Shown: positions 8,247-24,160 of the stretch, piece by piece
How positions within the stretch are numbered: the first letter of the stretch is position 1
How the letters are laid out: each line of letters opens with the position of its first letter
Source of the DNA: a virus
Strand: one strand, 5' to 3'
DNA length: 24,175 nucleotides
Virus record (IMG/VR): IMGVR_UViG_3300006641_000174
Span: 1-24,175 of that record
Position numbers and translations under genes: made by a program
Notes under the pieces: model-generated
The model's database searches: none
What the model saw: only the letters and a program-made list of their open reading frames with translations
Told to the model about the DNA's origin: nothing

Positions 8247-8654
8247 ATGAGTGAAGATTGGGTACGTGACATCGCCGGTATGCATCGGTATTATGGTGTA
8301 AATGAAAAGGTACAGGAGTTTGATAAGCAGACTCTTAAGCAGTTCCTTCAATTTCGTATGTCATTCCTGACAGAAGAATTGGACGAAACCAAGAATGCAG
8401 TTAAGAACAATGACGCCGAAGAGATTGTAGATGGCCTAATCGATCTGTGTGTCGTTGCTATCGGTACACTGGACTCCATGGGCATTGATTCGTACGAAGC
8501 GTGGAACCGTGTTCTACGTGCTAATTTGGCCAAGGAAGTCGGAGTAAAGCCTGAACGGCCAAATCCTCTTGGGTTGCCGGACCTTATCAAACCGGCCGGA
8601 TGGAAGGCACCATCCCATGATAAAAATCATGGTTTGTTGTCAAAACTAAAATAA
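8247..8654 (+). CDS. MazG-like nucleotide pyrophosphohydrolase
   Basis: The product is 135 residues and mostly helical. The core 'FLTEELDETKNAVKNND' followed by 'EEIVDGLIDLCVVAIGTLDSMG' gives the EExxE...ExxD metal-binding pattern of all-alpha NTP pyrophosphohydrolases. These enzymes convert NTPs/dNTPs to monophosphates plus pyrophosphate; in phages they are thought to clean or rebalance the nucleotide pool. Near the hydroxymethylase and deaminase genes it could remove unmodified dNTPs, but which nucleotide it uses is not visible. Start chosen at the ATG with AAGGAG 8 nt upstream. A hairpin lies in its last codons. Confidence 0.75.
   Translation: MSEDWVRDIAGMHRYYGVNEKVQEFDKQTLKQFLQFRMSFLTEELDETKNAVKNNDAEEIVDGLIDLCVVAIGTLDSMGIDSYEAWNRVLRANLAKEVGVKPERPNPLGLPDLIKPAGWKAPSHDKNHGLLSKLK
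8615..8640 (+). terminator. Possible terminator in the 3' end of the MazG-like gene
   Basis: A perfect 7-bp stem (CCATGAT/ATCATGG) with an AAAA loop is followed by TTTGTTGT. It overlaps the last coding codons and lies just before promoter P5. The stem is AT-rich in the middle and the T-run is interrupted, so termination may be weak. Confidence 0.45.
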
Positions 8655-9418: not shown

Positions 9419-9970
9419 ATGACTGAACTATTAGAAGAACTAAAATCCATCTTTTCTGTAACCGAACCGGGTCTAGTAATTGACAGAGAGTTTATTGAAC
9501 TCCGTGATAACATGAAAACTCGCCTGAATCAAGGCGGTAGAAATGACTTTAAATTTACCAAAGACATTGACTGCTTGATGCTCGAAGAATGGCTCATCAA
9601 AAAGAATATTGTTCTTGGTCCATTGGATGAACACCTTACAAAAGGTGGAGCATGTGTCTATGACTGCCGTATTGAGTTGCTAAATAGCACGGCATATGTC
9701 GACTTCAAATGCATCGATCAAAACCTGTATTATAACGTTTCTGAGCAGAAAATGGTAACCCATCCATGGGTACAAGAAGGCATTGACAAAGGTCTTCTGA
9801 CTCATTACTGTTTTTATCAAATGATTCGACCTGAAGATCGTCCGTTGCAAGAAAACGATGTAGTGACATTCAAACTTATCAATGTACTTAATTCTCAATA
9901 TGTGTTAGATTCGTTAATGCCCTCACAATATGAAGGCAAATATTATAAGGTGAACAAGTATGACCAATGA
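9419..9970 (+). CDS. Unknown protein with a possible D...DxK nuclease pattern
   Basis: The product is 183 residues. 'VYDCRIELLNSTAYVDFKCID' gives Asp82-x12-Asp95-x-Lys97 on consecutive predicted strands, the spacing expected for a PD-(D/E)XK site, and a helix with several Glu/Asp precedes it. No clear family match comes to mind, so the nuclease call is a pattern-based guess. It is AT-rich, has its own promoter P6, and overlaps the following DUF1599 gene by 11 nt. Almost no leader separates P6 from the ATG, and no Shine-Dalgarno sequence is evident. Confidence 0.55.
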   Translation: MTELLEELKSIFSVTEPGLVIDREFIELRDNMKTRLNQGGRNDFKFTKDIDCLMLEEWLIKKNIVLGPLDEHLTKGGACVYDCRIELLNSTAYVDFKCIDQNLYYNVSEQKMVTHPWVQEGIDKGLLTHYCFYQMIRPEDRPLQENDVVTFKLINVLNSQYVLDSLMPSQYEGKYYKVNKYDQ

Positions 9971-10328
9971 ACGTGAATCAGTAAAAGTCCTGCAAGAATG
10001 TATCGACCTGCAGATTAGAAAGTCGCAAGACTATCAGAACCCCAACTCGAACGTAGTGCAGGCAATGCACTATCGCCGTGGCGTAGACTCTATCCATGAC
10101 ACCATGCATGGCAAGATGCTTCGTGCCCAGTCTCTTCTCGAGTCTGGTTCTGCAGCCAACTTCGAATCTCTCGAAGACACCTACAAAGATCTTATCAACT
10201 ATGCCAGCTTTGCTGTCTCGTACATCCGTGGCAAGATGGAAGGCCAAGATCCTAATCGTGACTTCCTCAACCGTCCAATTATCGACGGCTCAAAGATTGG
10301 TGGCAACTCCAGCGTGGCAACTAAGTAA
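9960..10328 (+). CDS. DUF1599 protein (nucleotide modification associated domain 1)
   Basis: The 122-residue helical protein has 'KSQDYQNPNS' near residue 20, 'RGVDSIHDTMHGKMLRAQSL', and 'NFESLEDTYKDLINYASFA', the conserved pattern of DUF1599. This family is named for its association with phage DNA base modification genes. Its biochemical activity is not known to me. It starts the modification cassette and its stop overlaps the hydroxymethylase start (TAATG), supporting a shared role. Composition returns to the core-gene style here. Confidence 0.8.
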   Translation: MTNERESVKVLQECIDLQIRKSQDYQNPNSNVVQAMHYRRGVDSIHDTMHGKMLRAQSLLESGSAANFESLEDTYKDLINYASFAVSYIRGKMEGQDPNRDFLNRPIIDGSKIGGNSSVATK

Positions 10329-10978
10329 TGCTTAAGGTTGAACACATTCGTGAACACTTCATTGAAGAACTGAATTATGGTCGGTTTGTCACCGACAAGA
10401 CAGGTGTCAAGACCATCGAGATGATTGGTGCCACATTCGAAGCCAATCATCCATCAATCTTCGGCGATGTAAATGAGGATTACATTCAACGCGAACTTGA
10501 CTGGTACAAGTCAATGTCGCTGTATGTTGATGATATTCCTGGTGTTACTCCTGCTATCTGGAAACAGGTTGCTTCGACTGAAGGTAAGATTAACTCCAAC
10601 TATGGTTGGGCAATCTATAGTGAAGACAACGGATTGCAGTATCTCAATGTCCTCGATGAATTGACTGCCAATCCTAACAGTCGTCGTGCTGTGATGATCT
10701 ATACTCGTCCTACTATGTGGTCTGACTATAATCATAACGGCATGAGTGACTTCATGTGCACCAATGCTGTACAGTACATGATTCGTGATGGTCAGCTGGT
10801 TGCCGTAGTTCAGATGCGTTCTAATGACGTTGTCTTCGGCTATCGTAACGACTATGCATGGCAAAAGTATGTTGCAGATATGCTGACTAAAGATTTAGGT
10901 CTTGACGTAGAACCAAAGATCATCTGGAATGTTGGTAACCTTCATGTCTATGAACGTCACTTTGATAAGGTAGTCTAA
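10328..10978 (+). CDS. dCMP hydroxymethylase-like enzyme (thymidylate synthase fold)
   Basis: The 216-residue protein has the thymidylate synthase fold motifs: 'SRRAVM' phosphate-binding arginines, 'MCTNAVQ' with the nucleophile Cys144, 'MRSNDVVFGYRNDYAW' near 163-178, and 'HVY' at 206-208. In thymidylate synthase the stretch after RSxD reads G-x-P-F-N; here the Asn position is Asp175. In T4 gp42 an Asp at this site gives cytosine specificity, so the likely reaction is dCMP plus methylene-THF to 5-hydroxymethyl-dCMP. It overlaps DUF1599 upstream and dCMP deaminase downstream by 1 nt each. A dUMP hydroxymethylase or plain thymidylate synthase is less likely because both keep Asn. Confidence 0.78.
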   Translation: MLKVEHIREHFIEELNYGRFVTDKTGVKTIEMIGATFEANHPSIFGDVNEDYIQRELDWYKSMSLYVDDIPGVTPAIWKQVASTEGKINSNYGWAIYSEDNGLQYLNVLDELTANPNSRRAVMIYTRPTMWSDYNHNGMSDFMCTNAVQYMIRDGQLVAVVQMRSNDVVFGYRNDYAWQKYVADMLTKDLGLDVEPKIIWNVGNLHVYERHFDKVV

Positions 10979-11421
10979 TGAATAAATGGTCTGAACGTTA
11001 TATGGATATCGCCAAGTCGGTTGCTACTTGGTCAAAGGATCCATCCACAAAGGTCGGAGCCGTGGTGGTAGGAGACAAAGGTCAGATCCTCAGTCAGGGA
11101 TACAATGGCTTTCCTCGTGATGTCAAGGATACTAAAGACCGTTATGAAAACCGTGAAGAGAAGTACAAGTACATCGTACATGGTGAGATGAATGCAATCT
11201 ATAATGCATGTCATTCGGGTGCTTCTCTGAACGGTGCAACTTTGTATGTGACGGGTCTGCCTGTCTGTTCTGAGTGTGCAAAGGGTATCATTCAGGTCGG
11301 CATCAAGAAGGTAATCATGCAGTATCCTAAGGATATCAGTAAGACATGGAGAGACTCAATGGTTATAACACTGAAGATGTTCCAGGAAGCTGGTGTTACC
11401 TTTATTTGTCATGAGGAATAA
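10978..11421 (+). CDS. dCMP deaminase
   Basis: The product is 147 residues. Zinc ligands and the catalytic Glu appear as 'HGEMNAI' (His68, Glu70) and 'PVCSECAKG' (Cys97, Cys100), and the N-terminal 'STKVGAVVV' and 'GYNGFPR' are typical of the family. It converts dCMP to dUMP for thymidylate synthesis. Paired with the hydroxymethylase, it sits at the branch point of dCMP use, as cd and gene 42 do in T4. It is translationally coupled to the hydroxymethylase. Confidence 0.93.
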   Translation: MNKWSERYMDIAKSVATWSKDPSTKVGAVVVGDKGQILSQGYNGFPRDVKDTKDRYENREEKYKYIVHGEMNAIYNACHSGASLNGATLYVTGLPVCSECAKGIIQVGIKKVIMQYPKDISKTWRDSMVITLKMFQEAGVTFICHEE

Positions 11422-11764
11422 GGTACTAGTTGTCGGTATCAATCCTTCTTTCAAGAAGAAAAAGAATCCGACACTTATCCGTCTTCATCGCTGGATGGAA
11501 GAACTTGGTTGTAAACCATTCTCATTCACGAATGTAATACACAAAGAAGGTGTGTACAATAAGTCGGATATAGATTATAATTGGATTAATGAATGCAGCC
11601 GAGGCTATGACAAGATCATATGCCTCGGTGGTTTCGTATCATCGGCTATGGCCGATATCCCACATCACATGATGCCTCACCCATCTCCTCTGAACAGACG
11701 GCTAAATAGTCCCGAGTATGAGAGACAACAACTAGATCTGGCAATGGAATATCTATGGAACTGA
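11411..11764 (+). CDS. UDG-superfamily-like small protein
   Basis: Starting at ATG 11411 the product is 117 residues. A GTG at 11393 in the same frame would add six residues but lies deeper in the deaminase gene. 'VLVVGINPSF' near the start and 'PHPSPLNRRLN' near residue 92 match the two active-site motifs of the uracil-DNA glycosylase fold, and 'DKIICLGG' gives the middle strand. The protein is short for an active UDG, and the catalytic water-activating Asp/Glu is not obvious, so it may be a modified-base-binding or nucleotide-processing relative. Overlaps both neighbours. An internal promoter-like site is present. Confidence 0.5.
   Translation: MRNKVLVVGINPSFKKKKNPTLIRLHRWMEELGCKPFSFTNVIHKEGVYNKSDIDYNWINECSRGYDKIICLGGFVSSAMADIPHHMMPHPSPLNRRLNSPEYERQQLDLAMEYLWN
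11553..11581 (+). promoter_or_regulatory. Intragenic promoter-like site P7
   Basis: TGTACA at 11553-11558, 17 nt, perfect TATAAT at 11576-11581, inside the UDG-like gene and 174 nt before the next ATG. The match is as good as that of intergenic sites, so an internal promoter for the downstream modification genes is plausible. Confidence 0.45.
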
Positions 11765-12903
11765 CACAATACTATGATGAATATCTTCGTTACTTTGAAC
11801 TGGCCAAGGACCAACAGGCAAAGTGTAACCTAGGCACAGTTCCCTATCTTGAAAGTAATATGAACGACGATCTGTTGGAGAACGTCGAACTCTATGATGT
11901 CGTCGAACGTAAGTTCGCCGGCTTTTCTCAGATTGTAAATGATGTGTTCTATGGTTGGACTCCTGAACATCCATACTTCCATAAGATGAAACAAGGCTTC
12001 CACACACGTGAGCGTGGGTACATCGCCCGTGACTGGACTGGCAAGCATGCCGACTTCAGTCTGCCAGAGTGGCTGTACGTATTTCTTCTTCACCGCATAA
12101 CCGGTTCTGGCATTAACTATTCGAGGAAGCCATCCGGATATCACAACACAATCTTGCCTCATCTCTATGAAGCTGACTCGATTGAATGGATGGTTCGTAA
12201 GTTAAACCACTATCCACATCCATTCTATACCTCAGTCGGTTATCAGTTTCCTTCCTTCCCAAAAATCCCGGCAGGTACAAACTATCAAAGAGGTGGCGAC
12301 TACTATCTCTCAGAATATGCTCCGAAGCTTTGCCGTGAGTTAGCCGAATGGCTTGAGCAGTCAAATGCCAAGAAGGACATGCGTGAGATTGGTGAATGGT
12401 TGTTCGAATGGAATACCAGGCACGGTCTTAGAGTCTACCGTTTCCAGTATGCTGCATTTGTTGCCGATATTGCTGACTGGTACCCGCAATATGTTAATCT
12501 GGATAGCATGTTCTACTATGGCACGAATGCGGTGGAATGCATATCATATTTGGCTGTCAACACCGATAAGTTGAAGAAGGAAGCCTTCCTTGATAAAGTG
12601 ATGGATAAGATCTACGCCGACACTGGTGCGTATCCATACAATGCAGAAGATGTGTGCTGCGACTTTATCAGATGGGTTGAGAACTATGTCAAGCCAGGAG
12701 CAGACTATAACCATCTTGACTTCGACTCTGTTTGGTCCTCGTGTAAAATTAAAGACCATCCGTATGGACGTCAACGTGCGATGTTGGACCTGGGCCTAAT
12801 AAAAACATTTAACTTGATGACATCACATCCGTCCGATGATACTGTTATTAAAGCCGCCGGTATATCTGTGGAACAATACAAAGAAATGGTGAAAGCGCTA
12901 TGA
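11755..12903 (+). CDS. Amino acid:DNA transferase / aGPT-pyrophosphorylase-like protein
   Basis: The 382-residue protein has 'FLLHRITGSGINY', 'GYHNTILP', 'GYQFPSFPK', 'RFQYAAFVADIADW' and 'FYYGTNA', which I recognise as the pattern of the alpha-glutamyl/putrescinyl thymine pyrophosphorylase class, a DNA-glycosylase-like fold. In phages with hypermodified thymine, members of this class attach amino acids or polyamines to an activated hydroxymethyl base. Here it lies between hydroxymethylase/deaminase genes and a PLP enzyme, which fits base elaboration in DNA. The substrate could be hydroxymethylcytosine because of the Asp175 signature upstream. Starts 10 nt inside the preceding gene; its stop overlaps the next start. 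Family by memory, specificity by inference. Confidence 0.58.
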   Translation: MELTQYYDEYLRYFELAKDQQAKCNLGTVPYLESNMNDDLLENVELYDVVERKFAGFSQIVNDVFYGWTPEHPYFHKMKQGFHTRERGYIARDWTGKHADFSLPEWLYVFLLHRITGSGINYSRKPSGYHNTILPHLYEADSIEWMVRKLNHYPHPFYTSVGYQFPSFPKIPAGTNYQRGGDYYLSEYAPKLCRELAEWLEQSNAKKDMREIGEWLFEWNTRHGLRVYRFQYAAFVADIADWYPQYVNLDSMFYYGTNAVECISYLAVNTDKLKKEAFLDKVMDKIYADTGAYPYNAEDVCCDFIRWVENYVKPGADYNHLDFDSVWSSCKIKDHPYGRQRAMLDLGLIKTFNLMTSHPSDDTVIKAAGISVEQYKEMVKAL

Positions 12904-13802
12904 GTCATGATAAACACATAACCGATGGTTATAACCAGGATGTAGGTTACCGTTCTTGGGAAGAGGCCAAGGACTACTATCTAAACCTTGCTGCCACATG
13001 GACCGATCCCTATCCAGATCCGGTTGTAACTGTGCATGATGGTGTGCGTTGTGTACGTGACGATCTTATCACAGGAACTAAGGTGCGCGGCGGTGACTGT
13101 CTAATTTCAAGAATCAATCAGTCGACTATTGTATACGTACAGCCACGTACGGGTCTTGCAGGTGTATCCATCCTTGATGTTGCTAAACGTCATAATAAGA
13201 AGGTGAAGTTGTTCATGCCTTCTGCTCAACGGATTTCACACCACCAGGCATGTTGTATCGAACAGGGTGCAGAGGCATCATTCCATCGTATCGCTGCAAT
13301 GCCGAACCTGAACAAGATCGCCAAGGAATGGGCAGACCAGAACGACGATGCATTCTTCGTTCCGCTTGGCCTAAAGCATGAACTCGTCACTGCTGGTATC
13401 GTCAAGGCTGCATCAAAGATTGAAGCACCAGATGAAGTATACGTAGCCATCTCGACTGGCGTTCTTTCGAGAGCAATGCAGATTGCATGGCCGAATGCCA
13501 AGTTCTACTCGGTTGCTGTATCACGTAACCTGAAAGCTGGTGAACTCGGTCGTGCTGATGTTATCTCTGACCCTATGGCATTCCAGCAGAGTGAGAAGCC
13601 TGAGAATCTGCCACCGTTTCCATGCATAGATACATATGATGGTAAGGTATGGAAGTACATTCCAAAGAATACCGGCCGCAATATCCTGTTCTGGAACGTT
13701 GGCGCAGAACCGGTTCTCAACGATCCTACCATCTATGATCGCGTAAATAGTTATCGCGATTGGCCAAAAAAATGTGTACATTTTGCCCAACTTGATGTAT
13801 AG
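12900..13802 (+). CDS. PLP-dependent enzyme, fold type II (tryptophan synthase beta-like)
   Basis: The product is 300 residues. 'RDDLITGTKVRGGD' near 56-70 carries the likely Schiff-base Lys (as in 'GNKxRKL' of ACC deaminase-type enzymes). It is followed by 'GLAGVSILDVAKRHNKKVKLFMP' and 'CCIEQGAEASF', the standard second domain of this fold; 'STGVLSRAMQ' could be the phosphate-binding loop. PLP enzymes of phage hypermodification pathways process amino acids already linked to the base. ATGA overlap with the transferase-like gene argues for sequential action. A free-amino-acid enzyme supplying the transferase is the alternative. Confidence 0.68.
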   Translation: MSHDKHITDGYNQDVGYRSWEEAKDYYLNLAATWTDPYPDPVVTVHDGVRCVRDDLITGTKVRGGDCLISRINQSTIVYVQPRTGLAGVSILDVAKRHNKKVKLFMPSAQRISHHQACCIEQGAEASFHRIAAMPNLNKIAKEWADQNDDAFFVPLGLKHELVTAGIVKAASKIEAPDEVYVAISTGVLSRAMQIAWPNAKFYSVAVSRNLKAGELGRADVISDPMAFQQSEKPENLPPFPCIDTYDGKVWKYIPKNTGRNILFWNVGAEPVLNDPTIYDRVNSYRDWPKKCVHFAQLDV

Positions 13803-13803
13803 T
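13775..13803 (+). promoter_or_regulatory. Early-type promoter P8
   Basis: TGTACA at 13775-13780, 17 nt, TATAGT at 13798-13803, at the very end of the PLP-enzyme gene. The expected transcript start is at about 13810, next to the ATG at 13811, which would give a nearly leaderless message. Confidence 0.6.
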
Positions 13804-13810
13804 GAATAAT

Positions 13811-14842
13811 ATGAGCATACTAATCACATCCCCATTCACCCACATATCGTCTAACATCCATTCGCATCGTGCAGCCCAGGCGGCAATATATGCAGACCAG
13901 TTAGAGGATGCCGGATACACTGTACATCTAGACCGTACTGGTGATATCCATCCTGATATCAATTCATTCGATACTATCTGTGTCTATCACGGCAATGACT
14001 GGGGTGGATCTCTTAACCTATTTGGTGGAATGAAAAACTACGGTAATATCGACAACCTGATTCGCTACTCTCAATTTAAGGGTATTGTGAAATCGTTGTG
14101 GATCGATCATCCTAAATATTCTGAGATGCTCGAGCCACGTATGAAGGGTGATATCCATCCTGACTGGGCAAAGGTTGACTGGGAAAACCTGAAGCGTATC
14201 GAGAATACTGCTGTGACTCTTAGGCAGATGACGGCAACAACAAAGGTGGTTGCCGGTGATAGCCATGCTATCTGCATGTATCGTCCAGGTTGGTTTGTTA
14301 ACTCAGTGCCTTTCAAGACTCTACACGGTGCACTCAAGGAAGGTCTGAGTACGTTCATTCAACCGCATCATGAGATTGCTGAGTTCTACTTTGGCAACAT
14401 CGATGTGCGTCACCATCTGATGCGTCAGGCAAATCCTGAAGAGGCAACTCGTGATCTTGCTAAAAGATACTATGAGCAACTATCTCAACTAGATCTGGCC
14501 AAGGTATATGCCTATGAACTGCTACCTATCGAGAATGAGTCTCGTGCATTGCCGAAGACTGGTTACTATAAGGGTACACCGTTCTACGGTGCATGGGAAC
14601 ATCGTGAGACTGTTCGCCTGATCTTCAAGGATGAGATGAAGAAACTTTGTGCACAAGGTAGTGTCAACTTCATTGAATGGGTTGACTACCTCATGAATGA
14701 TAAGGGTGAACTGGACTTTGCTCACATGGAGAAACCAAAGTCTGTCCATCTATCACGTGATTCCTATCCACACTGGCAAGGTCGTAAATGGAGCGGCTTG
14801 TCTGAAACTAAACCATCAACACTAGAGGACTTTTTTATATAA
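13811..14842 (+). CDS. Unknown cassette protein with GDSH motif
   Basis: From ATG 13811 the product is 343 residues; a GTG at 13802 lies inside the promoter -10. The N-terminus looks Rossmann-like ('SILITSPFTHISSNIHSHRA', then 'ICVYHGNDWGGSLNLFGG'). The middle has 'VVAGDSHAICMYRPG', 'TLHGALKEGL' and 'FYFGNIDVRHHLMR', and near the C-terminus 'SVHLSRDSYPHW'. GDSH, the GN pair and a late HLS resemble SGNH-hydrolase blocks, but the layout is not standard. I know no named family. Its place between the PLP enzyme and DUF3310/glycosyltransferase suggests a tailoring step on the modified base or its precursor (inference). Confidence 0.6.
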   Translation: MSILITSPFTHISSNIHSHRAAQAAIYADQLEDAGYTVHLDRTGDIHPDINSFDTICVYHGNDWGGSLNLFGGMKNYGNIDNLIRYSQFKGIVKSLWIDHPKYSEMLEPRMKGDIHPDWAKVDWENLKRIENTAVTLRQMTATTKVVAGDSHAICMYRPGWFVNSVPFKTLHGALKEGLSTFIQPHHEIAEFYFGNIDVRHHLMRQANPEEATRDLAKRYYEQLSQLDLAKVYAYELLPIENESRALPKTGYYKGTPFYGAWEHRETVRLIFKDEMKKLCAQGSVNFIEWVDYLMNDKGELDFAHMEKPKSVHLSRDSYPHWQGRKWSGLSETKPSTLEDFFI

Positions 14843-15279
14843 TGAGCGCAAAAAGGATTGAAGAAGAAATGAGCGATGCAGGAAAACTTACAATAGGACA
14901 TGGATCTACTTTGAATGCAACTGGTATACCTGGAACCGAAGGCCCTCCTGGTAAAATGGGAACCATTGCAACTTTTATTCCAGGAATTAAAGCAAAGCAT
15001 TTAATCGAGTATAAATACAATGAAGGCGAATCACTCAAAGAAATTCAGTCTTACATTGATGCTACGTACGATCAGCATTATTCCCGAAATAAATTCCAAG
15101 CAACAGAATTCATCATTGATGCAGGCCACGGCACCGGTTTCAATATCGGGAATATGATGAAGTACACACAGCGTTACGGTCGCAAAGGCGATCCAGCCGA
15201 ATGGCGCAAAGACCTGATGAAGGTTATCCACTATGCAATTATGCAACTCCACGTCCATGACACAGAAAATAAGGATTAA
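14842..15279 (+). CDS. DUF3310 protein with a short collagen-like N-terminal segment
   Basis: The 145-residue protein has a C-terminal half 'YIDATYDQHYSRNKFQATEF' then 'FNIGNMMKYTQRYGRKGDP' and 'WRKDLMKVIHYAIMQLHVHD', the DUF3310 (SaV-like) pattern of phage nucleotide-related helical proteins. The N-terminal 50 residues are different: 'GIPGTEGPPGKMG' is four Gly-X-Y triplets. The start overlaps the preceding stop by 1 nt. The biochemical role is unknown. A TATAAATA octamer occurs in its coding sequence but is probably chance. Confidence 0.68.
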   Translation: MSAKRIEEEMSDAGKLTIGHGSTLNATGIPGTEGPPGKMGTIATFIPGIKAKHLIEYKYNEGESLKEIQSYIDATYDQHYSRNKFQATEFIIDAGHGTGFNIGNMMKYTQRYGRKGDPAEWRKDLMKVIHYAIMQLHVHDTENKD

Positions 15280-15281
15280 TT

Positions 15282-16142
15282 ATGGGAATTGAAATTAACG
15301 TACCAATTGAAAAGTTGCGTGAGCGCAAGCTCTTTGTAGCGGCTCCTATGTATGGCGGACAGTGTGCCGGCATGTTCACTCGCTCGATCGCCGATCTCTC
15401 GGCACTATGTACCCACTACGGTATTCAGGTTCGATTCTACTTCCTCTTCAATGAGTCGCTGATTACTCGTGCACGTAACTACTGTGCTGACGAGTTCATG
15501 CGTTCAGGTGACACCCACCTGATGTTCATCGACTCGGATATCGGTTTCAATGCCAACGACGTGATTGCATTGCTTGCTCTACAGTCGCAGAATCCAGAAG
15601 ATGATGACTATGATATCATCGCAGGTCCTTATCCAAAGAAGTGTATCAGCTGGGAAAAGATCAAGCTTGCAGTTGACAAGGGCTTCGCCGATGAAGATCC
15701 TAATCAGCTTGAGAAGTATGTAGGCGACTATGTCTTCAATCCTGCTGGTGATCGTGGTGAGATTCCACTCGGTGAACCGGTTGAAGTTCTCGAAGCTGGT
15801 ACCGGATTCATGATGATCCGTCGTAACACTTTCGACAAGTTTGCTGAAGCTTATCCTCAGCAGATGTACAAGCCTGACCATGTTCGCACAGAACACTTTG
15901 ATGGTTCACGTGAGATCATGGCCTTCTTCGATACGCCTATCTGTCCAGACACGAAGCGTTACCTGTCGGAAGACTACATGTTCTGTCAGTGGACACGTAA
16001 TGCTGGTATGAAGGTATGGTTCTGCCCATGGATGCAACTACAACACGTCGGCATGTATGTCTTCGGTGGTAGCCTTGTTGACCTGGCTCAGATCGGTGCA
16101 GCAGCCACGGCTGATGTCGGTCAATTAAAGAAGAAAAAGTAA
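15282..16142 (+). CDS. GT-A fold glycosyltransferase
   Basis: The product is 286 residues, with AAGGA before the start. 'RKLFVAAPMYGG' begins the nucleotide-sugar fold, 'LMFIDSDIGF' near 82-91 supplies the DxD-type metal motif, and 'LSEDYMFCQWTRNAGMKVWF' with 'LQHVG' is the typical acceptor/base region of family-2-like enzymes. The ending 'LKKKK' is basic. No membrane segment is seen, so it is cytosolic. Because it follows the hydroxymethylase cassette, glycosylation of hydroxymethylcytosine in DNA is the favoured role; glycosylation of a virion protein or host surface sugar is the alternative. Confidence 0.75.
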   Translation: MGIEINVPIEKLRERKLFVAAPMYGGQCAGMFTRSIADLSALCTHYGIQVRFYFLFNESLITRARNYCADEFMRSGDTHLMFIDSDIGFNANDVIALLALQSQNPEDDDYDIIAGPYPKKCISWEKIKLAVDKGFADEDPNQLEKYVGDYVFNPAGDRGEIPLGEPVEVLEAGTGFMMIRRNTFDKFAEAYPQQMYKPDHVRTEHFDGSREIMAFFDTPICPDTKRYLSEDYMFCQWTRNAGMKVWFCPWMQLQHVGMYVFGGSLVDLAQIGAAATADVGQLKKKK

Positions 16143-20175: not shown

Positions 20176-20252
20176 GCGCCCGTAGCTCATCTGGATAGAG
20201 CGCGAGACTTCTAATCTTGAGGCAGTAGGTTCGAGTCCTACCGGGCGCACCA
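20176..20252 (+). tRNA. tRNA-Arg (anticodon TCT)
   Basis: A full cloverleaf can be drawn: acceptor GCGCCCG/CGGGCGC, anticodon loop CTTCTAA, T-arm GTAGG-TTCGAGT-CCTAC, discriminator A, and encoded CCA. It reads AGA codons, rare in many Gram-negative hosts. Confidence 0.95.
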
Positions 20253-20253
20253 A

Positions 20254-20337
20254 GCCACGATGGCGGACCGGTAACGCGCGGGATTGCAAATCCCAGGCCT
20301 CGTAAGAGAGTGAGTTCGATTCTCACTCGTGGCTCCA
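20254..20337 (+). tRNA. tRNA-Cys (anticodon GCA) with enlarged variable loop
   Basis: Acceptor GCCACGA/TCGTGGC with discriminator T and encoded CCA; anticodon loop TTGCAAA; T-arm GTGAG-TTCGATT-CTCAC. U73 and GCA fit Cys identity. The variable region is about 14 nt and can form a CTC/GAG mini-stem, unlike the 4-5 nt usual for tRNA-Cys. It starts one base after the tRNA-Arg CCA, so the two must be processed from one transcript. Confidence 0.85.
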
Positions 20338-20354
20338 TATTAAAGGAAACAACA

Positions 20355-21509
20355 ATGAAGATGATTATGTTACTCGGTTCAGGTGAACTGGGCAAAGAGT
20401 TTGTAATTTCTGCTAAGCGTATGGGTCACTATGTTATTGCCTGCGACTCTTACCATGATGCGCCTGCAATGCAGGTAGCAGATGCGTATGAAGTGTTCGA
20501 TATGCTTGATGCACGCAAACTCGAAACCATGATTGACATTCATTCCCCGGATATTATTGTTCCTGAAATCGAAGCAATTGCCACTGAGGTTCTTTATGGT
20601 GTAGAGGATGCAGGTATTCAGGTCGTTCCATCTGCACGCGCAGTTAATCTAACTATGAATCGTGATGCTATTCGAGATCGTGCTCATGTGCTTGGTCTTA
20701 AGGTAGCTAAGTTTGCTTATGCTGAGTCTAAAGAAGAGCTTCTTGAGATTGCAGAGCAGTTTAACTGCAAGTGCGTAGTTAAACCTGTCATGTCATCATC
20801 GGGTAAGGGGCAGTCTATTATTGATCCGAGTCTTGATATTGACATTGGCATTCTAGCTTACCATTCATGGAACTATGCATGTGAAAACATGCGGGGTCTC
20901 CGCAAGCGTGTAATCATTGAAGAGTTTATTGACTTCGATTATGAGATTACTCTTCTGACTGTTAAGCAGAAAGATGGCCCTACTCTCTTCTGTCAACCTA
21001 TTGGTCACGTTCAAGAGAACGGTGATTATCAATATTCATGGCAACCTGAACCATTCAAGAACATTGCAACATATGGCGTAGCTCAGGCTATGGCAAGAGT
21101 AATTACTGACGATCTTGGTGGTGCTGGTTTGTTTGGGGTAGAATTCTTTGTTAAGGGTGATACAGTTTACTTCTCAGAGCTTTCGCCACGTCCGCATGAT
21201 ACAGGTATGGTTACAATGATCAGCCAGAACATCTCTGAGTTTGATCTTCACCTTAGAGCTATATTAGGTCTGCCTATTCCAGATATTAAGATCGCTAATG
21301 GTTTCGGTGCTTCAGCTGTTATTCTTGCTGAAAACGATACCTATACAAACCCGCTTTATGAAGGCATAGAAGATGCTCTAGAGACACCAGGTGTTGAAGT
21401 ACGTATCTTTGGTAAACCGGTCTGTCGTAAAAATCGGCGTATGGGTGTTGTATTGGCTCATAGTATAGAAGAAGCCCGTGAAGCGGCCGGAAAAATAAAA
21501 GTAGTTTAA
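20355..21509 (+). CDS. purT: PurT, formate-dependent GAR transformylase 2
   Basis: From ATG 20355 (AAAGGA upstream) the product is 384 residues (E. coli PurT is 392). An in-frame ATG at 20310 lies inside tRNA-Cys and is rejected. '[11 protein letters not shown]', '[10 protein letters not shown]', '[12 protein letters not shown]' (ATP-grasp), '[10 protein letters not shown]', 'GLFGVEFFV' and '[11 protein letters not shown]' match PurT closely and appear intact. The enzyme uses ATP and formate to formylate glycinamide ribonucleotide in purine synthesis, without needing folate. Carried by a phage, it is an auxiliary metabolic gene that would raise purine supply for DNA synthesis. It is read from the same transcript as the tRNAs upstream. 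Confidence 0.95.
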
Positions 21510-21512
21510 GCT

Positions 21513-21950
21513 ATGATTGAAGAAGCCAAAGAGCTAATTGCTACATCAAGTCCACAGTCATCGGTGTATATCGGTTGCGACTCGATACGTTATCGTAAGA
21601 ACAATCAATGGTATGCAAAGTACTCAACCGTAATCATTGTCCACATGGACTCTAAGCATGGATGTAGATTGTTCCACGAGTCACATGATTTGCCAGACTA
21701 TGGCAATCTAAAGCAACGTCTGCTGACTGAGGTTAACTACGCTGTAGCTGCAGCAACGGAAATTGTCGACATTCTGGGTGATCGCCACATGGAAGTTCAC
21801 TTGGATATCAATCCTAATCCGAATCATAAGTCATCTGTGGCAGTTAAGGAAGCACTCGGGTGGGTCAAGGGTTCTCTGGGCATCGATGCCAAGGTAAAGC
21901 CTGACTCATTCGCAGCCACTCATGCAGCAGATCATGTTGTTAGATACTAA
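21513..21950 (+). CDS. YkuK/DUF458-type RNase H-like protein
   Basis: The 145-residue protein has 'VYIGCDSIRY' with Asp23 at the end of strand 1, 'STVIIVHMDSKHG', 'LKQRLLTEV', 'MEVHLDINPNPNHKSS' and 'KPDSFAATHAADHV'. This is the pattern of the B. subtilis YkuK family, predicted to have an RNase H fold with several conserved acids. A nuclease activity is predicted for the family; substrate unknown. It lies 3 nt after purT. Confidence 0.8.
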   Translation: MIEEAKELIATSSPQSSVYIGCDSIRYRKNNQWYAKYSTVIIVHMDSKHGCRLFHESHDLPDYGNLKQRLLTEVNYAVAAATEIVDILGDRHMEVHLDINPNPNHKSSVAVKEALGWVKGSLGIDAKVKPDSFAATHAADHVVRY

Positions 21951-21958
21951 AATAACTG

Positions 21959-21987
21959 TGTACAAATAACGCAATATGTCGTAGAGT
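21959..21987 (+). promoter_or_regulatory. Early-type promoter P13
   Basis: TGTACA at 21959-21964, 17 nt, TAGAGT at 21982-21987, in the gap before three small genes. Confidence 0.7.
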
Positions 21988-22011
21988 GAATAATAACGAA
22001 CGGAGATTATT

Positions 22012-22185
22012 ATGACTGACGTAAAGGCATATTGGATTGTTCATATCGAGTACAGTCAAACCGACAGGGACACCGTGCTTGTAGATGCACCAACTCGTGA
22101 AGAAGCTGAGGCAATTATCCGTAACAATGGTTGCAATGCGCGCAGCATTCTTGCCCTTAGGAATAAAGTAAAGGTTGTGAACTGA
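22012..22185 (+). CDS. Small protein, unknown
   Basis: A 57-residue ORF starts with ATG after CGGAG; the start region GGAGATTATTATG resembles the gp45/gp44 start regions. The product, MTDVKAYWIVHIEYSQ..., has a beta-alpha-beta look. Its TGA overlaps the next ATG by one base. Function unknown. Confidence 0.65.
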   Translation: MTDVKAYWIVHIEYSQTDRDTVLVDAPTREEAEAIIRNNGCNARSILALRNKVKVVN

Positions 22186-22403
22186 TGAAAGTCTATGTAC
22201 TGATCCGCGACGAAACTGATTATAACGGTGAGCATGTTGTGGTCGGTGTTTATCCGACATTTGAAGCAGCCGAGATCGTTGGCGATTGGGAAACCGAAAA
22301 GGCCCAGGACTGGGTTGACGCCATGCGTGAGACAGGCGATAACATTGACGGTAACTGGGTTCCTAGCTTTCGTATTGAAGAAACGGAGTTTTATAGTGAC
22401 TAG
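22185..22403 (+). CDS. Small acidic phage protein, unknown
   Basis: The product is 72 residues: 'MKVYVLIRDETDYNGEHVVVGVYPTF' then an acidic helix 'EAAEIVGDWETEKAQDWVD'. Short proteins starting this way are common in phages, but none has a function I can name. It overlaps the phosphoesterase start by 8 nt. Confidence 0.75.
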   Translation: MKVYVLIRDETDYNGEHVVVGVYPTFEAAEIVGDWETEKAQDWVDAMRETGDNIDGNWVPSFRIEETEFYSD

Positions 22404-22992
22404 GTTCGTAAACAGGTTCGTGATCTCTGACCATCACCTTGGTCATACGAACTCATGGGAAAAGTTCAAGTTGGCTGATGGTAGTCCTCTCCGTCCGTTC
22501 ACCTCTACTGAGGAAATGAACGAGACTATGATTGAGCGTCACAACGCAAAGGTCAAGGAGCAGGATACTGTCTACTTCCTCGGTGACGTTGTCATCAACA
22601 AGAAGTATCTCGAGTTGGTGAAGCGGATGAACGGTCGCAAGATCCTTATCCGTGGCAACCACGATATCTTCAAGGACGATGAGTATCGTGAAGTTGGTTT
22701 CCAACAGATTCATGGTGTTCGTGTATTTGTGGATAAGTTCATCCTGAGCCATATTCCTCTGCATCCGGACTGTGTAACAGAACGGTTCCGTGTCAACGTA
22801 CATGGCCATCTGCATGCTAATCAGATCATGACAGGATATTATCCGGATCAGACGATCGATCCTCGCTATCTGTGTGTATGTGTAGAGCAAACTGACTTTA
22901 CACCTCTTCACTTCGACGAGGTTGAACAAAGAATCCAACAGCGTTGGGAGTATGCAGGATATGAAGGCCCAGGCATCGTGAGCGTAAAATAA
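22396..22992 (+). CDS. Metallophosphoesterase
   Basis: Start chosen at GTG 22396 (GGAG about 9 nt upstream) because the conserved domain begins at once; a longer frame upstream overlaps the preceding gene completely. The 198-residue product has 'ISDHHLGH' (residues 10-17), 'FLGDVV', 'RGNHD', 'LSHIPLH' and 'VHGHLH', all five calcineurin-type motifs. The size suits a small phosphodiesterase acting on nucleotides or nucleic acid ends; the substrate is not visible. It is distinct from gp47. Confidence 0.85.
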   Translation: MTRFVNRFVISDHHLGHTNSWEKFKLADGSPLRPFTSTEEMNETMIERHNAKVKEQDTVYFLGDVVINKKYLELVKRMNGRKILIRGNHDIFKDDEYREVGFQQIHGVRVFVDKFILSHIPLHPDCVTERFRVNVHGHLHANQIMTGYYPDQTIDPRYLCVCVEQTDFTPLHFDEVEQRIQQRWEYAGYEGPGIVSVK

Positions 22993-22995
22993 TTA

Positions 22996-23024
22996 TGTAC
23001 ATTAATTAAAAATTAGTGTACCAT
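22996..23024 (+). promoter_or_regulatory. Early-type promoter P14 for the tRNA cluster
   Basis: TGTACA at 22996-23001, 17 nt, TACCAT at 23019-23024. The -10 is weaker than in other members. Confidence 0.5.
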
Positions 23025-23025
23025 G

Positions 23026-23033
23026 TATAAATA
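23026..23033 (+). promoter_or_regulatory. TATAAATA late-type promoter before the tRNA cluster
   Basis: An exact octamer lies 18 nt before tRNA-Asp, so the tRNAs could be made both early and late. The expected start near 23038 gives only a short 5' leader. Confidence 0.5.
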
Positions 23034-23043
23034 AGAGTTCATT

Positions 23044-23119
23044 GGACTTGTAGCTCAATCGGGAGAGCACCGCACTGTCACTGCGGAGGTAGTGGGATCG
23101 AAACCCATCAAGTTCGCCA
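23044..23119 (+). tRNA. tRNA-Asp (anticodon GTC)
   Basis: Acceptor GGACTTG/CAAGTTC (one G-T), anticodon loop CTGTCAC on a CCGCA/TGCGG stem, T-loop ATCGAAA, discriminator G, encoded CCA. Confidence 0.93.
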
Positions 23120-23125
23120 TTCTGT

Positions 23126-23200
23126 GTCGGTGAGGGAAACTGGTAATCCGCAGGTCTCCAAAACCTTGAGAACTCGGTTCGATTCCGAGCACCTTCGCCA
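23126..23200 (+). tRNA. tRNA-Trp (anticodon CCA) with two acceptor-stem mismatches
   Basis: Anticodon loop CTCCAAA, T-arm CTCGG-TTCGATT-CCGAG, discriminator G and encoded CCA fit tRNA-Trp. The acceptor arms GTCGGTG and CACCTTC leave positions 2-71 (T/T) and 3-70 (C/T) unpaired, and the outer anticodon-stem pair is C/T. It may be a decaying copy or a tRNA that tolerates this. Confidence 0.7.
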
Positions 23201-23234
23201 GAATGTTCTTTGACATCGTTAGAAACTCTTATGT

Positions 23235-23310
23235 GCGAGTGTAGCTCAGCTGGTAGAGCAAACGACCGATAATCGTTAGGTCACAGGTTCAATCCCTGTC
23301 ACTCGCACCA
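23235..23310 (+). tRNA. tRNA-Ile (anticodon GAT)
   Basis: Acceptor GCGAGTG/CACTCGC, anticodon stem AACGA/TCGTT with loop CCGATAA, T-arm ACAGG-TTCAATC-CCTGT, discriminator A, encoded CCA. Confidence 0.93.
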
Positions 23311-23313
23311 AAC

Positions 23314-23399
23314 GGAGGGTGCTGAGGTTGGCTCCTCACACAGTCTTGAAAACTGTAGTTACCGAAAGGTAAATGGTTCGATGCCATCACCCTCCTCCA
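23314..23399 (+). tRNA. tRNA-Ser (anticodon TGA)
   Basis: Acceptor GGAGGGT/ACCCTCC, anticodon stem ACAGT/ACTGT with loop CTTGAAA, and a long variable arm (TTACC-GAAA-GGTAA) typical of tRNA-Ser; CCA is encoded. The discriminator appears to be T, whereas bacterial tRNA-Ser usually has G. Confidence 0.88.
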
Positions 23400-23400
23400 T

Positions 23401-23475
23401 GGCCCCGTCGTCTACTGGCTAGGACACGTCACTTTCACTGACGAGAAGGCGGATCGAAACCGCTCGGGGCTACCA
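23401..23475 (+). tRNA. tRNA-Glu (anticodon TTC)
   Basis: Acceptor GGCCCCG/CGGGGCT (one G-T), anticodon stem CGTCA/TGACG with loop CTTTCAC, T-arm GGCGG-ATCGAAA-CCGCT (last pair G-T), discriminator A, encoded CCA. It begins one base after the tRNA-Ser CCA. Confidence 0.92.
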
Positions 23476-23545: not shown

Positions 23546-24160
23546 ATGCTATCTTGCCAATTTTGTAATAAAGAATGCAAAAATGAAAATTCTTTGCGCA
23601 ATCATCAGAGAATGTGTAAAGAAAATCCGGACAAACACGAATCACCATTTAAAAAATTTAAGGCTAAAAATCCACAACCGTGGAATAAAGGTAAAAAACT
23701 TCATTATGATGTTGGTACAAAAGGAAAGCCTAGTACTTTCTTAGGTAAAAAACATACTGAAGAATCTAAGAAAAAACTTTCAGATAAAATTAACGAACGC
23801 TATGCGAACGGATGGGAATGTGTTGCTGGCAGGTGTAAAAAATATTCATATTCTTCACCTATTGCCGGTGAAATTAAAGTCGATGGTTCATGGGAATTAA
23901 TATTTTGTCGATACGCTGATGCCAGCGGCTTAACATGGACAAGAAATACTAAAAGATTTGGTTATATTAAACCAGATGGAAAATCTTCTACATATCTTCC
24001 GGATTTCTTTGTTAAAGAATGGAATTGTTATATAGAAGTAAAAGGTTATGAAACCGATTTAGATAAAGCTAAATGGGATCAGTTTCCGGAAAAATTAAAA
24101 ATATTACGACGGAAAGAAATTGGTGAGTTGGATGAGTGGTTAAAATCAGCACCCTGCTAA
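23546..24160 (+). CDS. Homing-endonuclease-like protein with zinc finger, NUMOD3 and PD-(D/E)XK site
   Basis: The product is 204 residues. An N-terminal finger uses Cys4, Cys7, His20 and Cys24. Residues about 43-85 ('PWNKGKK', 'FLGKKHTEESKKKLS') are NUMOD3-type DNA-binding repeats common in phage homing endonucleases. The C-terminal domain has 'YLPDFF' (Pro152-Asp153) and 'YIEVKGY' (Glu164, Lys166), a clear PD-x10-ExK nuclease site, in place of the GIY-YIG or HNH domain more often joined to NUMOD3. The gene is much more AT-rich than the core genes and sits next to tRNA genes, both signs of a mobile gene. No intron boundaries are seen, so it would be free-standing. Confidence 0.8.
   Translation: MLSCQFCNKECKNENSLRNHQRMCKENPDKHESPFKKFKAKNPQPWNKGKKLHYDVGTKGKPSTFLGKKHTEESKKKLSDKINERYANGWECVAGRCKKYSYSSPIAGEIKVDGSWELIFCRYADASGLTWTRNTKRFGYIKPDGKSSTYLPDFFVKEWNCYIEVKGYETDLDKAKWDQFPEKLKILRRKEIGELDEWLKSAPC

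Follow-up and report, generated by a model that had tools for sequence, protein, structure and literature searches.

What might a phage of the T4 superfamily write onto its DNA with a row of nine genes lying close to gp45, and onto which base? The window, by which we mean the whole 24,175-nucleotide stretch analysed (IMG/VR record IMGVR_UViG_3300006641_000174), is a T4-superfamily phage fragment in which nine open reading frames, here called c1 to c9, follow one another on the + strand at 9960-16142. From c1 to c8 they overlap by 1, 1, 29, 10, 4, 1 and 1 nt, and 2 nt separate c8 from c9. The 29 nt overlap of c3 and c4 (GTG start at 11393) shrinks to 11 nt if the in-frame ATG at 11411 is used. 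The initial annotation had read these consecutive genes, mostly coupled by short overlaps, as a base-hypermodification cassette inserted between gp46 and gp45. The block is real and the cassette reading is supported, but five further ORFs separate the block from gp46 (gp46, gp45 and similar labels were assigned by eye and position, without HMM searches). As to its product, we give an about even chance to an amino-acid-derived hypermodification of hydroxymethylcytosine (hmC).

The base is indicated by c2 (10328..10978), a protein of the thymidylate synthase (TS) family that aligns with the T4 gp42 structure 1b49 over residues 3-213 of 216 (E 1.6e-88). Both its catalytic Cys144 and its Asp175, equivalent to TS position 177, are present in 110 of 110 distinct relatives. 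Asp also occupies this specificity position in the gp42 proteins of T4 and Aeromonas phages 31 and 25, and Asn is found there in the second TS-family protein of phages 31 and 25, in the TS-family protein of phiM7 and in the TS-family enzymes of M6 and ViI. By sequence, then, c2 is a T4 gp42-type dCMP hydroxymethylase, and its relationship to gp42 and the Asp in this position together make cytosine the expected base: the handle is almost certainly hmC and not hydroxymethyluracil, and we infer that hmC is present in virion DNA. The hydroxymethylase originally proposed is thus not only borne out but sharpened to cytosine. Other predicted nucleotide-type genes accompany it: c1 (9960..10328) matches DUF1599, nucleotide modification associated domain 1 (PF07659, 1.1e-6, above cut-off), and c3 (10978..11421) is a dCMP deaminase by HMM match (PF00383, 1.2e-23; phrog_174, 8e-48), both as first annotated. 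Furthermore, one of the five ORFs upstream of the block (8247..8654, + strand) encodes a phosphoribosyl-ATP pyrophosphohydrolase-like (PRA-PH) protein (PF01503, 2e-10), a candidate dCTP/dNTP pyrophosphohydrolase whose gene lies upstream in many related loci. According to excerpts of a published account, PRA-PH, TS and dCMP deaminase co-occur on viral contigs with modified cytosine (PMC8670742).

Which genes belong to the cassette proper was judged from 179 de-duplicated viral loci (of 272), in which 62 c5 ORFs from 61 loci (one c5 being split in two) had room on both sides. Both c6 and c2 lay within 4.7 kb of c5 in 62 of 62 cases and c7 in 61 of 62, the exception being locus L081, with c7 at 4.8 kb. 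Since c6, c2 and c7 accompany virtually every testable c5, the linkage goes beyond chance; in loci fetched with c5 itself the counts were 48/48, 48/48 and 47/48, respectively. Within the same distance c1 was found for 41 of the 62, and c3 was near 40. A further gene, X0, sits between c5 and c6 in many relatives (49 of 80 loci retrieved through c5; 21 of 62 testable ORFs) and is absent from several lineages. The orders observed were c5-c6-c7 (21, plus 2 from the one split c5), c5-X0-c6-c7 (18), c7-c6-c5 (18), and single cases of c5-X0-c7-c6, X0-c7-c6-c5 and c5-X0-c6 with c7 just outside. The cassette adjoins either gp45 or uvsX-gp41. Thus c5-c6-c7 is the cassette core, kept together across several orders and two genome sites, which answers positively the initial annotation's call for a co-occurrence check of these three families.

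Among the core proteins, c6 (12900..13802) falls in phrog_7093 (6e-39), aligns with gp52 of phage M6 (hhalign probability 97, E 8e-11), with which it also shares a C-terminal stretch, and is related to cysteine synthase 3zei in a profile search (3e-6). Lys61, by motif reading the candidate PLP lysine, is present in 133 of 133 members and in M6 gp52. The M6 PLP gene lies directly 3' of a PF18724 gene, as c6 lies directly 3' of c5. By these comparisons c6 is a fold-type-II PLP enzyme, as first proposed, and specifically a homologue of M6 gp52. The c6 profile found no match in ViI, W-14 or PaMx11, and no relative in Aeromonas phages 31 and 25.

The third core protein, c7 (13802..14842), had been left as unknown and is now predicted to have an SGNH-hydrolase fold, making it an esterase or acyltransferase candidate. 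Its model (pLDDT 84) matches 2hsj (Z 14.2), and 140 of 998 chains reach a Z of 8 or more; among the best 50 of those 998 rows, most titles name GDSL-like lipases, esterases, PAF acetylhydrolases or acyl-CoA thioesterases. Ser154 and Gly176 are conserved in 144/144 relatives, Asn199 in 119/144 (Ser in 25) and His316 in 142/144 (two gaps). We take the Ser, the Asn and an Asp-x-x-His to stand for SGNH blocks I, III and V, respectively; the residue three before His316 is Lys, Ser or Gln in most of the 144, not Asp. Relatives of c7 occur in 43 phage records, 38 of them of Aeromonas (cultured T4-like phages), and both c7-carrying genomes that were checked, phages 31 and 25, have gp42-type Asp enzymes. 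The phage 31 relative is a fusion whose other part resembles HMUDK_hel weakly, at a sub-threshold 9e-4.

These c7 data bear on the strongest alternative, that hmC is decorated with a sugar which c5-c7 build, attach or acylate and which c9 or another glycosyltransferase transfers, with no amino acid involved, on the model of T4, RB69 or Thanatos. Many fold neighbours of c7 are carbohydrate or sialate esterases. Sugar chemistry is also indicated by a UDP-galactopyranose mutase gene that precedes the c7 relative, two genes upstream of it in Aeromonas phage 25 (PF03275, 5e-54) and three in 60AhydR15PP; a 358-aa protein without assigned family lies between mutase and c7 relative. Moreover, T4-like hmC phages are often glycosylated, according to the portions consulted of two reports (PMC6024577, PMC12838424), and c9 (15282..16142) is GT-A-like: 10 of 17 aligned relatives weakly match GT21 (PF13506) and 10 of 17 Anp1 (PF03452; best 6e-4). 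The window c9 protein itself had no Pfam match, and its profile found no relative in the PDB. However, c9 orthologues adjoin gp45 in phiM7 and RHph_I1_18 and lie one gene from it in DLP_6. In these phages no gp42-type c2 was found, and none of them was among the tblastn matches listed for c5, c6 and c7 (40 of 43 host records in the case of c7). In lineages with the cassette at uvsX-gp41, c9 is not its neighbour. Because its orthologues sit at gp45 in phages without gp42-type c2, c9 looks like a resident neighbour of gp45 and not the cassette member first proposed; perhaps the same holds for c8 (14842..15279), whose DUF3310 assignment was upheld (PF11753, 2.8e-7), as a gene annotated DUF3310 is also near gp45 in Rhizobium phage RHph_I1_18. 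The initial annotation had suggested an amino-acid-derived group, a sugar, or both: with c9 outside the core the sugar half is weaker, and the amino-acid half is favoured. Furthermore, none of the nine block genes matched a sugar-nucleotide family (Pfam, PHROG, NCBIfam), and the homology of c6 to the PLP enzyme M6 gp52 also speaks against this alternative. On balance, we regard a sugar without amino acid as unlikely, though a serious competitor.

The candidate amino acid transferase is c5 (11755..12903), which the initial annotation had called amino acid:DNA transferase-like or aGPT-like. When its predicted model (pLDDT 72.5, moderate) was compared with 234 chains, the glycinyltransferase of PaMx11 (8z2n) ranked first with a Z of 9.4, in a range (under about 13) that, the structure tool warns, may arise by chance for helical models; the superposition covers 212 residues with an rmsd of 4.1 and 6% identity. 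Plain Foldseek found no significant match for c5 in the PDB. A BFVD neighbour (A0A6J5L8T5, 65% identical) bears the database name 'Amino acid:DNA transferase domain-containing'. The HMM and profile tests did not bear the claim out: c5 matched nothing in Pfam, PHROG or NCBIfam, hhalign against PF18724 (ADDT) or PF18723 was not significant (probability 0.1-1.9), and neither family was detected in any of 23 c5 members at E up to 1. The PF18724 HMM matched M6, W-14 and ViI and none of nine related contigs, and an HMM of the enlarged c5 family retrieved no ADDT or HMUDK protein among its 26 best non-self rows. By HMM, therefore, c5 lies outside PF18724, and by predicted fold it is a candidate amino acid:DNA-transferase-like protein. 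The initial annotation had considered that the 11755 and 12900 proteins might fall in unrelated families; the latter falls in a family of the expected kind and the former in none.

The next structural rows for c5 are AGOG 8-oxoguanine glycosylases (Z 7.0, 6.8 and 6.6), and AGOG and OGG enzymes recur down to a Z of 4.4; the fold is therefore one common to DNA glycosylases. This raises the possibility that c5, and perhaps X0, is not a transferase and acts instead as a DNA-glycosylase-fold protein on unmodified cytosine or host DNA, in a self/non-self system tied to hmC, much as T4 degrades cytosine-containing DNA. Adjoining c5 is c4 (11393..11764, or from the ATG at 11411), a small protein resembling the UDG superfamily (PF03167, 0.019; 15.5 bits against a cut-off of 24.3), with all 14 aligned members, the window protein included, matching UDG at E up to 0.1 (best 4.8e-6). 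Yet the top row for c5 is a hypermodifying glycinyltransferase, 2.4 Z units above AGOG, and its constant partner c6 is a homologue of M6 gp52, a type of PLP enzyme for which we know of no role in excision. We consider this explanation improbable.

The initial annotation's statement that no hydroxymethyl-base kinase is in the window was borne out, and extends to nine related contigs of 35-168 kb, possibly incomplete (a 35 kb sister contig of the window and eight larger ones): no PF18748 or PF18723 protein scored above cut-off, and the contig of locus L144 gave a single sub-threshold PF18748 match (10.5 bits, E 0.019). A scheme in which the substrates of c5-c7 are free nucleotides or some other small molecule, in pre-replicative or host-takeover metabolism, and in which DNA carries only hmC would suit this result and the nucleotide-type families of c1, c2 and c3, but is improbable given that the predicted c5 fold and c6 homology point to DNA-base hypermodification enzymes.

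In the amino-acid reading that we prefer, c2 would make 5-hydroxymethyl-dCMP from dCMP, with c3 and the PRA-PH protein encoded upstream assisting as pool enzymes. Once hmC is part of the DNA, c5 would attach an amino acid to its methylene carbon, a step suggested by its predicted resemblance to the phage 5-phosphomethyl-dU glycinyltransferase and by its gene company; we hold this step itself to be roughly as probable as not. The PLP enzyme of M6 works on a DNA-bound amino acid, and c6 may likewise trim or decarboxylate one. To judge from its computed fold and conserved Ser and His, c7 might then add or remove an acyl group. X0, in the relatives that carry it, is a candidate only for hydroxymethyl activation. 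The full scheme, a widespread T4-superfamily branch with a c5 transferase beyond the reach of all Pfam models, c6 reshaping, a c7 acyl cap and X0 as hmC activator in some lineages, is more tentative, somewhat short of an even chance.

The block is present in many uncultured T4 relatives, and its families are common: before de-duplication, confirmed stretches in IMG/VR number 103 and 138 for the two types of c5, 373 for X0 and at least 591 for c6. To our knowledge, amino-acid hypermodification on a hydroxymethyl handle is known only on thymine. If our reading is true, T4-type hmC phages can carry it out on cytosine as well, using transferases of a family that current HMM libraries overlook. As the families are common, they would offer concrete enzymes for studying how phage DNA escapes restriction and CRISPR, and might also serve as tools for putting amines on cytosine.

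How does this compare with known systems? In the sections consulted of the MetaGPA report, contigs of the 5-carbamoyloxymethylcytosine type likewise combine an Asp177-type TS, dCMP deaminase and PRA-PH, but tailoring there is by a carbamoyltransferase (PMC8670742), a family that none of the nine block genes matched in Pfam, PHROG or NCBIfam. Cyanophage S-B43 CmoX/CmoY, as far as the consulted part of its description goes, also carries an amino acid on a cytosine C5 substituent, as proposed here; its product is 5-carboxymethylcytosine-glycine, made with a carboxymethyl group from Cx-SAM and an ATP-dependent amide ligase (PMC12783734), whereas the handle here would be the hydroxymethyl from gp42-type c2. 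Aeromonas phages 31/44RR and 25 share a c7-family gene alongside a gp42-type Asp hydroxymethylase, but phages 31 and 25 are without a c6 relative, and window c5 matched none of the phage records in tblastn (E up to 0.01). Cytosine glycosylation in T4, RB69 and Thanatos resembles the present system in its gp42-type hydroxymethylase, dCMP deaminase, T4-superfamily genome and nearby GT-A-like gene; however, T4 gp1 and gp56 were not found in a protein search of eight related contigs, and we know of no place for a PLP enzyme or c5 in glycosylation. Finally, Pseudomonas phages M6 and PaMx11 and Salmonella phage ViI make 5-hmdU and use a kinase, an amino acid transferase and PLP, radical SAM or flavin tailoring enzymes. 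The window differs from them in the base (Asp here, Asn in M6 and ViI), in a c5 outside PF18724, in showing no PF18748/PF18723 kinase above cut-off and, across eight related contigs, no M6-type radical SAM, and in the additional c7. What it shares with them is a TS-family hydroxymethylase, perhaps the fold of the PaMx11 PUGT in its predicted c5 model, and a PLP gene of the M6 gp52 family placed directly after a transferase or transferase-like gene.

The window, an IMG/VR virus fragment of 24,175 bases, contains uvsW, gp47, gp46, gp45, gp44, gp62 and regA, recognized by eye and by the order common to phages DLP_6 and phiM7, and on this gene content it is assigned to the T4 superfamily. The same genes occur, 98-100% identical at the protein level across 18.6 kb, on a GTDB contig (L303); its placement in a Thermoleophilia MAG is taken as mis-binning and not as host evidence. 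As the initial annotation had described, nine + strand genes (c1-c9) run from 9960 to 16142, and most joints overlap by 1-11 nt. The Pfam families above cut-off in this block are DUF1599, the TS family, dCMP deaminase and DUF3310, and the proposed UDG-fold protein (c4) has a family match, but a weak one. No Pfam family above cut-off was found in c5 (11755-12903), c6 (12900-13802) or c7 (13802-14842); c6 is a PLP enzyme by PHROG match. Elsewhere in the window, a homologue of PurT (formate-dependent GAR transformylase; 20310-21509) scores 516 bits against the NF006766 cut-off of 339, falls below that of TIGR01142 (472 against 502 bits) and is unusual cargo for a T4-like fragment. Seven tRNA genes lie in two clusters within 20176-23475, and a small protein at 23546-24160, which weakly matches zinc-finger, NUMOD3 and TnsA-like families, is perhaps a homing-type endonuclease.

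Searches with c5, c6, a divergent c5 and X0 (an extra gene between c5 and c6 in many relatives) gave 272 viral loci, or 179 once repeats of c5 or c6 DNA were removed; the best 80 per search were retained, so the sample favours close relatives, and a locus retrieved through c6 or X0 has that gene by construction. The neighbourhood check suggested in the initial annotation found c5, c6 and c7 together. Around 62 c5 ORFs with enough flanking sequence on either side (from 61 loci, as L093 has its c5 split in two), c6 and the hydroxymethylase gene c2 lay within 4.7 kb in all 62 cases, c7 in 61, c1 (DUF1599) in 41, c3 (dCMP deaminase) in 40 and X0 in 21; at the sole testable c5 without c7 inside that distance (L081), c7 lies at 4.8 kb. 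Loci fetched by c5 alone contained c6 in 48/48, c2 in 48/48 and c7 in 47/48, and c6 genes with room around had c5 within 3 kb in 77 of 79 cases and c7 in all 79. Since the orders vary (c5-c6-c7, c5-X0-c6-c7, c7-c6-c5 and three rarer ones) and the cassette is placed next to gp45 in some loci and next to uvsX-gp41 in others, these three genes remain linked despite rearrangement.

The likeness of c5 to an amino acid:DNA transferase has moderate support from its predicted fold but fails every family-membership sequence test. Membership at HMM level of PF18724 (ADDT, amino acid:DNA transferase) or PF18723 (5-hmdU DNA kinase) was rejected, all sequence tests being negative; tblastn over 50,697 phage records turned up nothing (E up to 0.01); and the best PDB match of the sequence, over 59 residues to a TatD protein (3e-4), was taken for chance. 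The c5 model (pLDDT 72.5, pTM 0.74, from an alignment with Neff under 2.5) ranks 8z2n, the PaMx11 5-PmdU glycinyltransferase, first (Z 9.4 over 212 aligned residues, rmsd 4.1, 6% identity), followed by three AGOG structures (Z 7.0, 6.8 and 6.6) and nothing further above 4.5, a fold's absence from that list carrying no weight; plain Foldseek of the model against the PDB gave nothing significant. Among named BFVD neighbours the nearest (65% identical) carries the label 'Amino acid:DNA transferase domain-containing protein', as does a 330-aa protein at E 0.0067, both labels being quoted as the database gives them. Conserved residues of c5 are R52, H113, R114, D238, D241, E298, C302, D303 and R306. 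The modelled fold suggests, with moderate confidence, that c5 would work like an amino acid:DNA transferase.

Of the 80 loci initially retrieved with c5, 49 (L005:11139-12134 and 48 more) have X0, a gene for about 330 aa, next to c5, and IMG/VR holds 373 stretches related to it. The window's own lineage yielded no X0, and a search without a positive control did not find it in 12 contigs (14-113 kb) of lineages locally lacking it. The members scanned had no significant Pfam or PHROG match, tblastn over the 50,697 phage records gave none at E up to 0.01, and hhalign against ADDT, HMUDK and the Aeromonas parts stayed below probability 1 throughout. Matches between c5 and X0 reach only E 0.18 and 1.5, and unrelated rows alongside score as well. 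By eye, and as a lead only, a Glu and a Cys about four apart can be seen near the C-terminus of c5, X0, ADDT and HMUDK. A further gene, X13, lies between c7 and c8 (DUF3310) in 26 loci, that of L062 (14075-15271) and 25 others, and encodes a C5-cytosine-methylase homologue (PF00145) whose targets could be the same cytosines. Aligned, 13 distinct copies give a consensus of CPC where PPC is usual, and X13 was rejected as CmoX by motif, 0 of the 13 having the SPPC named for that protein in PMC12783734.

The PLP enzyme proposed at 12900 is borne out by homology of c6 to M6 gp52 (profile comparison: probability 97, E 8e-11, 187 columns) and by a match of its family profile to cysteine synthases (3zei, 3e-6). 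All 133 relatives, and also M6 gp52, have the Lys at which PLP is expected to bind. In M6, gp52 directly follows gp51, the PF18724 gene. Among the known genomes compared, this link is to M6 only, because the c6 profile had no match in ViI, W-14, PaMx11, T4 or Aeromonas phages 31 and 25. By tblastn, the window's c6 matches three phages: Erythrobacter phages R6L and ZS04 and Microcystis phage Mae-JY30. In the R6L ORF (L082:9905-11284) a PLP domain (PF00291, 1e-10) precedes an N6_N4 methylase match that falls below cut-off, and the PLP family may there serve another kind of DNA modification; a gene annotated as PAPS reductase lies about 2.4 kb away. In Mae-JY30 the match adjoins two genes annotated ParB/sulfiredoxin.

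The c7 model (pLDDT 84.3) has an SGNH/GDSL hydrolase-type fold (2hsj, Z 14.2); its sequence found nothing below 0.1 in the PDB. Ser154 is present in 144/144 distinct relatives and His316 in 142 (two gaps), and the Asp usual ahead of this His is missing. Phage records with a relative at about 27-32% identity number 43, counting duplicates of one genome (38 Aeromonas, 3 Tenacibaculum and 2 Stenotrophomonas, both IME13); among the matches listed, tblastn found c7 in these genera only. In Aeromonas phage 31 (L084:10004-12391) a 795-aa protein has the c7-type part at its N-terminal side, and its C-terminal part matches HMUDK_hel below threshold (19.1 bits against 25, E 9e-4; for the whole protein of UP87, 0.0022), a match that an HMM built on four HMUDK proteins did not confirm. 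Phage 31 is cultured and has a gp42-type hydroxymethylase. In Aeromonas phage 25 (L298:2782-6053) a UDP-galactopyranose mutase, an unassigned 358-aa protein and the c7 relative stand in a row, the mutase two genes upstream of the latter. The phage 31 fusion points to base-kinase-like company and the phage 25 mutase to sugars.

That sugar chemistry is the main purpose of the block is a rival reading, and for phage 25 a galactofuranose-type or related decoration of hydroxymethylcytosine (hmC) is possible. In the window, a candidate for such chemistry was c9, whose GT-A match is weak and seen in relatives. At 47-68% identity, phiM7 and RHph_I1_18 have a c9 orthologue immediately ahead of gp45, and DLP_6 has one with a single gene in between; a DUF3310 gene also lies near gp45 in RHph_I1_18. 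At E up to 0.001 c2 is unmatched in DLP_6 and RHph_I1_18, phiM7 has an Asn-type TS only, and tblastn over the phage collection that includes all three found c5 in no record and c6 in three others. With orthologues at gp45 in phages without a gp42-type c2, c9 is rejected as part of the cassette core, and c8 is perhaps a neighbour as well. We consider the sugar reading unlikely for the block as a whole, and give about an even chance to tailoring of an amino acid on hmC by the PLP enzyme and the candidate transferase.

How might the hydroxymethyl group be activated? The kinase reported missing from the window was not recognized in longer relatives either: across nine contigs that carry the cassette (35-168 kb, possibly incomplete and bluntly searched), PF18723, PF18724 and PF18748 gave no match that passes the cut-off, with a single 10.5-bit PF18748 match on the L144 contig. 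As positive controls, PF18723 and PF18724 match in M6, W-14 and ViI, and PF18748 in M6 and ViI. A PaMx11 gp49 protein search of the same nine contigs found nothing, and T4 gp1 and gp56, both detected in the T4 control, were not found in eight contigs. One divergent cassette has, a few kb away, a Zeta_toxin/AAA_33-type P-loop kinase (L134:13940-14662, 5.6e-11) as a loose kinase candidate.

The base itself is better defined. The closest solved structure to c2 is T4 dCMP hydroxymethylase (E 1.6e-88), with CMP hydroxymethylase (2.6e-10) and TS (5e-10 and weaker) far behind. According to PMC8670742, TS residue 177 separates dCMP from dUMP enzymes. This residue is Asp in 61/61 first-round c2 sequences, window copies included, and in the enlarged set both it (Asp175) and the catalytic Cys are present in 110/110 distinct sequences. 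Among the controls, T4 and Aeromonas phages 31 and 25 carry Asp in gp42; Asn stands in the second TS-family protein of the two Aeromonas phages and in the TS-family protein of phiM7. On Asp175 in all 110 relatives, hydroxymethyluracil was rejected as the handle, which is very probably hmC.

The gene combination of the block was not found in print in a search confined to openly licensed PMC papers. Lee, in 2018 and 2022, and Wen, in 2024, reportedly set out the steps of the M6, ViI and PaMx11 pathways. The M6 and ViI chemistry suggests that the product may be decarboxylated and amine-bearing, whichever amino acid it comes from. The M6 and ViI enzymes have Asn at TS position 177, and it is the dCMP-type Asp of c2 that sets this cassette apart from the thymine systems.
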